From assembly GCA_905181965.1 (NCBI GenBank), contig CAJIZY010000009.1, positions 248,001 through 312,000 on the forward strand: a DNA stretch of 64,000 nucleotides, in the 5' to 3' direction. The notes under the pieces are model-generated. The model made no database searches. It had not been told where the DNA came from and saw only the letters and a program-made list of their open reading frames with translations. The position numbers and the translations under genes are program-made. Shown in pieces: positions 5,512 to 10,615 of the stretch (position 1 is the first letter of the stretch; each line of letters begins with the position of its first letter). Origin of the DNA: Akkermansiaceae bacterium. GTDB taxonomy: Bacteria; Verrucomicrobiota; Verrucomicrobiia; Verrucomicrobiales; Akkermansiaceae.

Positions 5512-5541
5512 AAAAAACCGGAAGAATCTTTCCGGTTTTTT
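5512..5541. terminator. Bidirectional terminator between convergent genes
   Basis: Near-perfect hairpin: AAAAAACCGGAA on the left and TTCCGGTTTTTT on the right. A-tract and T-tract flank it, so it can stop both the PBP-like transcript (plus) and the thioredoxin-like transcript (minus). Confidence 0.85.
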
Positions 5542-5565: not shown

Positions 5566-5961
5566 CTACTTTTTGGCGAGGAGCTTGGCCACCACGGCAT
5601 CGACTTCTTTCTTGCCATAAGTGTGTCCTTCGATCGTATCGACGAGTTTACCGCTCTTATCCTTGGCGATAATACCGTGCCCCTTGAGCTTAGCCTTTTT
5701 GATTTCTTCTTTGCTCTTGCCGGTTCCGACGAGGACGTTCTTGAAGGTGATTTCTTTTCCCTTTGTCTTTTTGAGATCATTCACGATGACCGCGATTTTT
5801 GCACAAAGCGGTCATCCATCGAAGTAATAATAAGTGAGCGTGGGAACTTTAGCCTCAGCAGCGACCTTCGCCACAGGAGCCTTTGACTCATCTGCTAAAG
5901 TAGTAGTGATTAGGAGAATGGGCGCCAAAGCTGCGACCATCCAAGCGATTGGTTTTTTCAT
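5566..5961 (-). CDS. Candidate selenoprotein: secreted thioredoxin-like protein with in-frame UGA in a UxxC motif
   Basis: Reading through one TGA (5812-5814) gives a single 131-residue protein. The start ATG is at 5959-5961 and begins a clear signal peptide (MKKPIAWMVAALAPILLITT, cleavage likely after TLA, residue 23). After a short Ala/Lys linker comes a first beta strand, TLTYYYFDG, then U50-P-L-C53 and a helix AKIAVIVNDLKK: the arrangement of a thioredoxin-fold CxxC site with the first Cys replaced by UGA. The frame then runs unbroken through FKNVLVGTGKSKEEIKKA and HGIIAKDKSGKLVDTIEGH to a Lys-rich end. It lies 71 bases after the DUF1501 gene on the same strand and ends at a strong terminator. 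The alternative is a TGC/TGT to TGA substitution, by mutation or sequencing error, in an ordinary CxxC protein. Confidence 0.7.
5775..5814 (-). promoter_or_regulatory. Candidate bacterial SECIS-like hairpins downstream of the UGA
   Basis: Two mutually exclusive stems can form. Stem 1 starts at the UGA itself: UGACCGC (5814-5808) pairs perfectly with GCGGUCA (5793-5787) around a 14-base loop. Stem 2 lies further on: GGUCAU (5791-5786) pairs with AUGAUC (5780-5775, one G-U) around the loop CGUGA. Its loop starts 26 bases after the UGA and has G in second position, which resembles the spacing and loop G of known bacterial SECIS elements. The pairings are seen in the sequence; the function is inference. 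Confidence 0.45.
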
Positions 5962-7504: not shown

Positions 7505-10495
7505 CTAGCGTTTCATCAAGGTCTCATCAAGATTGAGAAGGATATTCGCAACAACGGTGAGGGAGGCAAGCTCTACGACATCGATGTCTTTAGGAACTGG
7601 ACCGATAGGATTGGTGGCCATTTCCTGCGCGAGCTTTTGGTCGGCGGCATACTTGCTGCGTGTAGAATCGTAGAAAGCGATCAGGCGAGAAGTTTCAAGC
7701 TCGTTAGGAGAGCGAGAAAGGCAAAGTTGGAAGCCATGTTTAATCATGGTAGCGACCGACCCTTTGTGCGCCACCATTCGTCGAGAGAGAGCCTGAGCAG
7801 CTTCTATGTAGACCGGGTCATTCAAGGTCACGAGAGCTTGCAACGGCGTGTTGGTATTCCCACGCCGCACAGTGCAAACCTCGCGATTGGGAGCTCCGAA
7901 GGTCGCCATGGAAGGATACGGACTGGAACGACGCCAGCTAGTATAAACGCCACGACGGAACTTATCCTCGCCAGAGCTTGTGCTCCAATCAGTGCCGCCT
8001 CCGAAGGCAGCCTTGAGACCAAGATTTGGCTGGGGCGGACGAACCGGAACACCGTACATTTTCGAACTCAACAAACCCGAGACCGCGAGAGCCTGGTCGC
8101 GGATCATTTCCGCGGAAAGCCGGACCCGAGGACCACGGGCAACAAGACGATTGTCGGGATCCAGAACAGCCATCTCATCGCTGACATGAGAATTCTGGCG
8201 ATAGACCGATGAAGTGACGAGAAGGCGAAGAAAATTCTTAACATCCCATCCCCCATCCATGAATTCGACCGCAAGCCAATCAAGGAGTTCGGGATGAGAA
8301 GGCCGTTCGCCCTGAGATCCAAACTCCTCACTTGTAAGGACGATTCCTACGCCGAAGAGATTCTCCCAAAACCGATTGGCGACTACACGGGCAGTCAGAG
8401 GGTTCTCTCGGTCCACCAACCATTTCGCCATCGCGAGTCGGTCAGGATTCGAGCCCTTGGGAAGCGAGCCGAAAACTTGAGGCACCCCCGGGCCGACCTC
8501 TTCCCCAAGACTCAAATAGCTCCCACGAAGTTGAATATGGGTCTTACGATGCCTATCCTTAGGCAGGTCACGCATAATGGGAACCGAGGTGAGAGGCTTG
8601 ACGGAGGCCAGTTGCTTTTCGAGATCCGCGAGCTTCTTGGTGACAGCAAGTATGCTGGGATTGGTCTTACGGTAAACAGCAACTAATTGAGCCTTCTCAG
8701 CAGCGCTACGTTTGGCAGGAGACGTTTTAAGGATTGCTATCATCTCGGAGGAAAGCGCCATGGAAGGACCTGCAGAATCAGTTGCCAAAATCCGGAAGTG
8801 GCCAAGCGCATGATTTGGATAGCGCTGCAGAAGTCTAAGTTCGAGATCCCGCCCATCGAGAGGTTTATTTAACTCGATCACGATATGATGATCCTGACCC
8901 AGCGCTCCGCCAACCGCCCAGCCGGAATCACTGCCGGCATTGCCATCAATCGCAGAGGCCGCTCCAAATTTGTCCTGATCATAAGTCGAAGAGGCATTCG
9001 AAAAAGCGGCTTTGGTCCTACCACTAGTGAGTTCGATTTCGTTGAGGACAAAGTTTCCATTCCGACCTGGCCCCCCGCTTCCTAGCTTATCATGAGCAAG
9101 AGCCTCGATCTTAATTGCAGTAATTCTTTTCAGCTTACTACTAGCGGAAATCGTATAATCGTCAGTTCCGGCAGTCTTTCCACTCACGAGAATAGAGCCG
9201 TCAGAACCCGCCTTGAAATTCGCACCAGAAACCGCAGTCATTTTTTCTGGCGTGAGAACATACCAACGACCTGCCTTCGCCTTCAAAGCAGCCTCCCATT
9301 CAGCAACCGCCTTAGGATCGATCTTGTTGGCAGGCTCCATTTCCTTCTTCAGCTTTGCGATCTCAGCGGAAATATGAGCCGCTTGTTTTTTATTTCGATC
9401 ACCCATCACCTGGATAATTGGAGCTTCATTAGGTGCTGTAGTTCATCTTGCTATTTCTAAAATAGCAAACATCTGAAAATACTCAGCATGACTGATGGGA
9501 TCATATTTGTGGGTATGACACTGAGCACAAGCTGCTGTAGTTCCCATCCAAGTCGCCATAGTCGTATTGACACGATCAACGACCGCTGCGTTACGAAATT
9601 CTTCATCACTCGTTCCGCCTTCGTTATTCGTCTTAGTATTGCGGTGGAAAGCAGTGGCAATGAGTTGATCTTCAGTTGGGGTGGGAACTAGGTCGCCAGC
9701 AATTTGGTCAATCGTAAATTGGTCGAACGGCATATTCTCATTGAAAGCACGAATAACCCAATCTCGATAGGCCCAAATCGTTCGGCCCGGGTCATCCGCA
9801 TAACCAGCTGAGTCGGCATAACGAGCAAGATCCAACCACATACGAGCCCAGTGTTCGCCGAAAGCAGGCTTGGCAAGAAGACGGTTGACCAGATTCTCGT
9901 ATGCCTTGGCACTCTCATCAGCGAGAAATGCATCGACCTCCGCCTTGGTAGGCGGAAGCCCAGTAAGATCGAAGGCAACTCGTCGAATTAAGGTGTGAGG
10001 ATCAGCTTCTTTGCTAGGCGAAAGATCTTCTTTACTGAGTCGGCTGAGAATAAAGGCGTCTATGGGATTACGAACCTTCATCTTGGTCTCATCAACCTGA
10101 GGAACCTCAGCACGAACAGGCTTTGCATAGGACCAATGGACCTCGTATTCCGCTCCTTCCTCGATCCACCGCTTAAAAAGTTCAATTTGTTCCTTCGTAA
10201 ACCGCGCCCCCTTTCCCGGAGGTGGCATCATCTCATCCTCATCGTCCGTAACAATTCGATAGATCAACTCACTGTCCTCGACTTTTCCGGGCGAAATAGC
10301 GGTAAAACCCTTATGATCCTTTGTGGCCCCTTCACGAGTGTCGAGTCGTAGCTTCGCCTTACGATCCTCTTCGTCCGGACCGTGACAGCGGTAACAACTG
10401 TTGGAGAGTAGAGGTCGGATTTCGTCATTGAAACTGACTTTCGCACTAAGGGAGGAAAAACCGAGAATGAGAACAAAGAGAGAACGGATGAACAT
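7505..10495 (-). CDS. PSCyt1 / DUF1549 / DUF1553 secreted protein (interrupted by in-frame TGA)
   Basis: Start chosen at ATG 10493-10495, which gives a signal peptide (MFIRSLFVLILGFSSLSA). It is followed by a c-type cytochrome motif (SCYRCHGPDEEDRKAKLRLD, CxxCH), DUF1549 (DAFILSRLSKE, LTGLPPTKAEV, ARYADSAGYADD), an insert with a galactose-binding-like look, and DUF1553 (RVVANRFWENLFGVGIV, TSSVYRQNS, FGAPNREVCTVRRGNTNTPL). The frame is interrupted by TGA at 9443-9445. The reading frame is the same on both sides, but eight residues around the stop (EIAR*TTA) do not fit the usual FAxLNQTxDADxxxEAP segment and coincide with a short fold-back inverted repeat. It is probably one gene damaged locally. 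Confidence 0.88.
9448..9468. repeat. Perfect 9-bp inverted repeat at the PSCyt1 lesion
   Basis: TTGCTATTT - CTA - AAATAGCAA. It sits immediately beside the in-frame TGA. Seen from the coding strand, the bases after the native GCTATTTTA look like a reverse-complement copy of the bases just before it, as a template switch would produce. Confidence 0.8.
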
Positions 10496-10615
10496 AAGAA
10501 AGTGTCTTGGGAACCCTACAAGAGATCTACGGTTATCCAACCTCCGATCTTGCTCTCATGACATCGAATTTTTGAGGAATGAAACGACCTCCCACTCTTC
10601 GACGTAGTGAGAAGG

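Follow-up and report, generated by a model that had tools for sequence, protein, structure and literature searches.

Thioredoxin-fold selenoproteins carrying a UxxC motif are a kind already known. The Sec-containing thioredoxin (PF00085; PMC13188914, Table 1) has its UxxC where helix 1 begins and is encoded with a UGA codon and a downstream bSECIS element, and GOS_C, SaoT and HUIPC are likewise small thioredoxin-fold UxxC selenoproteins drawn from genomes and metagenomes. Among the selenoproteins of the Global Ocean Sampling, Trx-like 3 is presented as a UxxC protein with a weak match to cd02950/TxlA (PMC2398784). The published bSECIS model specifies a loop of 3–9 nt on a stem of 4–16 bp, a G within the first two positions of the loop, a distance of 16–37 nt from the UGA and a folding energy of −7.5 kcal/mol or lower (PMC13188914). 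The word Verrucomicrobiota is absent from the main text of three major prokaryotic-selenoproteome papers (PMC13188914, PMC9312934 and PMC2398784), and our search of the available literature on selenoproteins of this phylum returned nothing on the family described below.

The window (the whole stretch of DNA analysed, 64,000 nt) comes from a marine Verrucomicrobiales bacterium whose assembly is 61.6% complete. An earlier note, which named no strand, had singled out a 131-codon frame at 5566–5961 interrupted by a single TGA. Interval and TGA both proved right, with the gene on the minus strand (5961 to 5566, TGA at 5814 to 5812); a plus-strand reading of the same interval is meaningless. The TGA does fall where the first Cys of a CxxC motif was proposed to lie (FDG-U-P-L-C-A), at residue 50 of the minus-strand translation. 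The gene and its main parts are as follows.

5566–5961, minus strand: putative selenoprotein coding sequence, 131 codons plus TAG, with ATG at 5961–5959 and an in-frame UGA read as Sec; orthologues have the same length and frame.
5893–5961, minus strand: likely Sec-type signal peptide, residues 1–23 (MKKPIAWMVAALAPILLITTTLA|DE), judged by eye.
5569–5841, minus strand: predicted thioredoxin-fold domain, residues 41–131 (AlphaFold2 pLDDT 91–96 over residues 41–130).
5812–5814, minus strand: UGA codon 50, the putative selenocysteine and first residue of U-x-x-C; TGA in 47/47 distinct orthologues, aligned with Cys in four distant paralogues.
5803–5805, minus strand: Cys53 (TGT), the presumed resolving Cys of U50-P-L-C53; invariant.

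The read-through protein is MKKPIAWMVAALAPILLITTTLA-DESK...LTYYYFDG-U-PLCAKIAVIVNDLKK... The frame is intact on both sides of the TGA as claimed, but this does not by itself distinguish the gene, as the window contains 43 frames that a single TGA interrupts, leaving 39 codons or more ahead of it and 59 or more behind it. Among these, UxxC occurs only in the present gene and CxxU in two frames. The split-frame pattern by itself could be chance; it is the comparison with relatives that lifts this gene above chance.

A protein search of 58 relatives recovered copies in 21 genomes, each with exactly one in-frame TGA, and a search of named genomes gave 21 loci, all in MAGs that are either unlabelled or labelled Akkermansiaceae, Verrucomicrobiales, Roseibacillus, Rubritalea and the like. 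Profile searching of 387 genomes of the order yielded 44 copies with one TGA, spread over two families. The family is narrow, since among 388 genomes drawn evenly from the phylum only the bacterium's own matched. The earlier note had looked to homologues with Cys or TGA at position 50 for support, and both kinds were found: Cys in distant paralogues, and TGA at the codon-50 site in 47/47 distinct orthologues, which come from independent assemblies and range from 93% to ~45% identity. Invariant alongside the TGA in these 47 copies are C53, K55, H95, G96, G104, G112 and H113. Matches in two further genomes (G029 and G494) were rejected as family members, being ordinary TrxA. One truncated copy, additional to the 44, was observed at a contig end (L097, G631:C67), where the 5′ half of the gene is replaced by an apparent IS66-type transposase end.

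Comparison with described families places these proteins near thioredoxins but outside the available models. The window protein scores 15 against PF00085, below the gathering cut-off of 23.5 bits, and no member matches that model better than E 0.0029; other matches to Pfam and NCBIfam thioredoxin models also lie below their cut-offs. No match was obtained with the NCBIfam/Pfam selenoprotein models; those for GOS_C (NF045500), SaoT (NF040730) and HUIPC (NF047660) did not match the window protein even at E ≤ 1, and 22 members searched at E ≤ 0.01 gave no match to them either. As judged from these comparisons, the family is outside those families of PMC13188914 Table 1 that can be tested by model. 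It differs from the Sec-containing thioredoxin in falling below the PF00085 cut-off, in its predicted export, in lacking the cis-Pro and in having two invariant His. A weak match to the TxlA-type model thylak_slr1796 was seen in 11 of 22 members. Trx-like 3 is similar in being marine, in UxxC and in its weak thioredoxin match, as far as its description in PMC2398784 goes; that comparison is by description only, and overlap is possible. With this proviso, the family is apparently undescribed.

The earlier note had proposed a signal peptide followed by a thioredoxin-like domain, with the TGA between the first β-strand and the first helix; the AlphaFold2 model bears out the domain and the position of the TGA. 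Nearly all members begin, by eye, with KK/R, a hydrophobic core and a small-x-Ala end, and this region is unstructured in the AlphaFold2 model (pLDDT < 50). The modelled domain runs β 41–46, helix 51–67, β 72–77, helix 83–89, β 96–100, β 106–111 and helix 117–129; Sec50 sits at the base of helix 1. Its best structural match is a designed thioredoxin (VIA Z 13.5, rmsd 1.5, 87 aligned), and thioredoxins are almost exclusively what appears among the matches listed. The cis-Pro before the fourth strand is missing; an invariant H95-G96 stands there with no Pro, and in a profile alignment with 8xyw G96 falls on the cis-Pro. Two His are conserved throughout.

5677–5679, minus strand: His95, in the invariant H-G at the X-cisPro place of thioredoxins; invariant in Sec and Cys members.
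5623–5625, minus strand: His113, the other invariant His, located in the loop that precedes the final helix; conserved without exception in Sec and Cys members.

Taken with the hairpin evidence below, we favor, at a probability of roughly 0.9, a genuine exported selenoprotein in which Sec is inserted by means of a hairpin and Sec50 and Cys53 form a periplasmic thioredoxin-fold redox couple. SelB and charged tRNA-Sec would bind the hairpin at 5791–5775 when UGA codon 50 is reached, giving Sec and not termination, as suggested by the sel genes and by conservation of the element. The signal peptide would export the product, and the small thioredoxin domain would fold in the periplasm. There, Sec50 may attack disulfides or related oxidised groups, and Cys53 would resolve the mixed selenylsulfide, making the Sec50–Cys53 couple reversible; His95 and His113, on the substrate face of the thioredoxin fold, likely tune the selenol or bind substrate. 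Because the thioredoxin fold carries Sec50 behind a signal-peptide-like N-terminus, a periplasmic selenol/disulfide oxidoreductase is the most likely function, a reading drawn from fold and motif.

A different role for the same selenoprotein, mainly the binding or transfer of a soft metal such as copper through U50, C53, H95 and H113 instead of disulfide exchange, strikes us as unlikely. Two His and U/C-x-x-C are among the few residues common to Sec and Cys members, and H-G replaces X-cisPro, both of which would suit a metal site. In Sco copper chaperones, too, a Cys motif is combined with a His close to the strand following the fold's cis-Pro site. Their motif, however, is CxxxC, not CxxC, and no conserved metal gene neighbourhood accompanies the present gene. 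Equally speculative is a combined picture of a Verrucomicrobiales-specific exported family that has no Cys orthologue and whose Sec, Cys and two His would form a redox and soft-metal site after loss of the cis-Pro, for periplasmic metal handling or metal-gated redox chemistry.

Evidence for Sec at codon 50 also comes from the RNA downstream of the UGA.

5775–5791, minus strand: putative bSECIS hairpin, with a 6-bp stem GGUCAU/AUGAUC and loop CGUGA, in which G-U at positions 2–3 is invariant; the loop begins 26 nt past the UGA.

The hairpin forms across relatives as GGUCAU-CGUGA-AUGAUC or AUGACC. Synonymous sites in the 47-row codon alignment are saturated, because the codon use of conserved residues is close to expectation nearly everywhere; departures are seen chiefly at codons +8 to +11 past the TGA (GTC 43/44, ATC 41/47, GTG 41/47 and AAT 42/42) and at the codon before the TGA. 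Pooled pS is 0.35 at codons +7 to +13 versus 0.76 in the rest of the gene. In 40 distinct sequences the stem has 5–6 pairs, with 96.7% of pair cells paired, and the covariation score is 0.149 versus 0.119 in shuffles, a value reached in 0 of 500 shuffles and in no slid version. This covariation reflects few independent events, namely two-sided changes at two pairs: U26–A38 to C–G in one clade (L094–L096), together with Val→Ala and Asp→Gly, and G24–C40 to A–U in one (L074). The loop GU is invariant in 40/40; six sequences change CGUGA to AGUUG or AGUUA (positions 1, 4 and mostly 5) and keep G-U at 2–3. Nearly frozen, and with compensatory changes that accompany amino-acid changes, the hairpin offers a clear example from nature of selection acting on a bSECIS.

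Measured against the published model (PMC13188914), the element agrees in its 5-nt loop, 5–6-bp stem, G at loop position 2 and 26-nt distance. It is weak in energy: for the accessible stretch, folding energies run from −3 to −11 kcal/mol (mean −5.8), and consequently only a minority of members reach −7.5 kcal/mol. The hairpin is the optimal fold in 37/40 sequences; in the window's own sequence an alternative hairpin is slightly better in energy. Another hairpin, found in a first fold and spanning the UGA itself, was rejected because it is not kept in relatives and would be covered by the ribosome at decoding, whereas the hairpin 21–37 nt downstream is conserved. The codon preceding the UGA (5815–5817, minus strand) is GGA in 43/46 copies, far more than expected Gly codon use, and is perhaps part of the read-through context.

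The Cys counterparts of the family occur in a single genus, g22, where four distant copies (L022, L098, L099 and L100) have CFLC at the Sec-aligned site. They share the domain and both His (95 and 113) with the Sec family and differ from it in having Cys for Sec, in their identity of only ~21–29% to the Sec form and in forming no SECIS hairpin. A Sec/Cys pair is found through these distant paralogues only, and one genome (G507) encodes both a Sec copy and a Cys copy. Most of the Cys paralogues have a lipobox-like LxGC N-terminus; the Sec form looks soluble.

The earlier note had also looked to selA, selB, selC and selD. Three of these are present in the bacterium's own genome over curated cut-offs: selA (G000:C9:39365-40711), selB (G000:C11:49838-51745) and selD (G000:C22:7204-8130, with an in-frame TGA). 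For selC (tRNA-Sec) no match exceeded the cut-off in the 61.6%-complete assembly, which has no counterpart of the 10-kb selC region of the sister genome G015; tRNA-Sec with anticodon TCA is present in relatives. An Rfam scan of the window at gathering scores found one tRNA and nothing else. Across the 58 relatives, selA is present in 20/21 genomes with the gene versus 17/37 without it (Fisher P = 1.4e-4, uncorrected for kinship); the sole gene-bearing genome that lacks it (G023) is 72% complete and has selB. The own-genome SelD (L102) is a selenoprotein itself (CGG-U-ASK); a hairpin with a GUU loop follows its UGA, and its orthologues in most relatives likewise contain TGA.

Read-through of the UGA by a near-cognate tRNA (Trp or Cys) or under a changed code could draw on the selC result in the own assembly; we nevertheless regard it as very improbable. 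UGA is an ordinary terminator of other members' genes (L019, L020 and L041), paralogues have Cys at the site, a SECIS-like hairpin is conserved, selA, selB and selD are present, and relatives carry tRNA-Sec (TCA). Sec at UGA codon 50 is, in contrast, well supported by these comparisons and close to certain, and the UxxC selenoprotein put forward in the earlier note finds backing in the conserved TGA, the paralogue Cys, the covarying bSECIS, the sel genes and the thioredoxin fold.

A sequencing or assembly error that hides TGC or TGT in an ordinary CxxC thioredoxin-like protein would suit an assembly with frameshifts, in which a DUF1549/DUF1553-type gene is split in the window and whole in relatives; it is refuted by the identical TGA in every one of the 47 orthologues, across independent assemblies and species, and we consider it almost certainly wrong. 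Just as negligible is a pseudogene or a 49-residue product ending at a real stop, which is what annotation software that does not handle Sec would report, because strong purifying selection acts on the frame 3′ of the TGA (dN 0 to 0.06 versus dS 0.3 to 0.5 in the closest pairs), the invariant residues from C53 to H113 lie past the UGA, and 49 residues would comprise a signal peptide and one strand. With the UGA in 47 copies and an insertion hairpin after it, the gene is thus neither broken nor misread by sequencing, and almost certainly represents a real selenoprotein family.

Among the 58 + 387 genomes searched, none yielded a direct orthologue in which Cys occupies the site, suggesting that Sec is needed in this Verrucomicrobiales family. 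The prokaryotic selenoproteome thereby gains a well-supported, predicted exported family in Verrucomicrobiota. In marine MAGs, pipelines that take UGA for a terminator will break these genes in two or miss them.

Downstream of the gene lies one further feature.

5512–5541, no strand assigned: bidirectional terminator-like inverted repeat (AAAAAACCGGAAGAATCTTTCCGGTTTTTT), read directly from the sequence.

This repeat separates the selenoprotein gene from a convergent penicillin-binding protein-like gene. The DUF1501/cytochrome module that the earlier note had remarked on is a neighbour that the gene shares with its closest relatives only, and it forms no conserved operon. It therefore says little about function, and the gene neighbourhood was set aside as a functional clue. 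DUF1501/PSCyt-type modules adjoin the gene in several lineages (L025–L030, L041 and L043–L045), on differing sides and strands, which probably reflects how abundant such modules are throughout the phylum. The DUF1549/DUF1553-type gene upstream (window 7505–10540, minus strand) is split into ORFs of 634 and 365 aa and is a single ORF of 996–1011 aa in relatives (L025–L030); the split is a frameshift, one that likely stems from faulty assembly.
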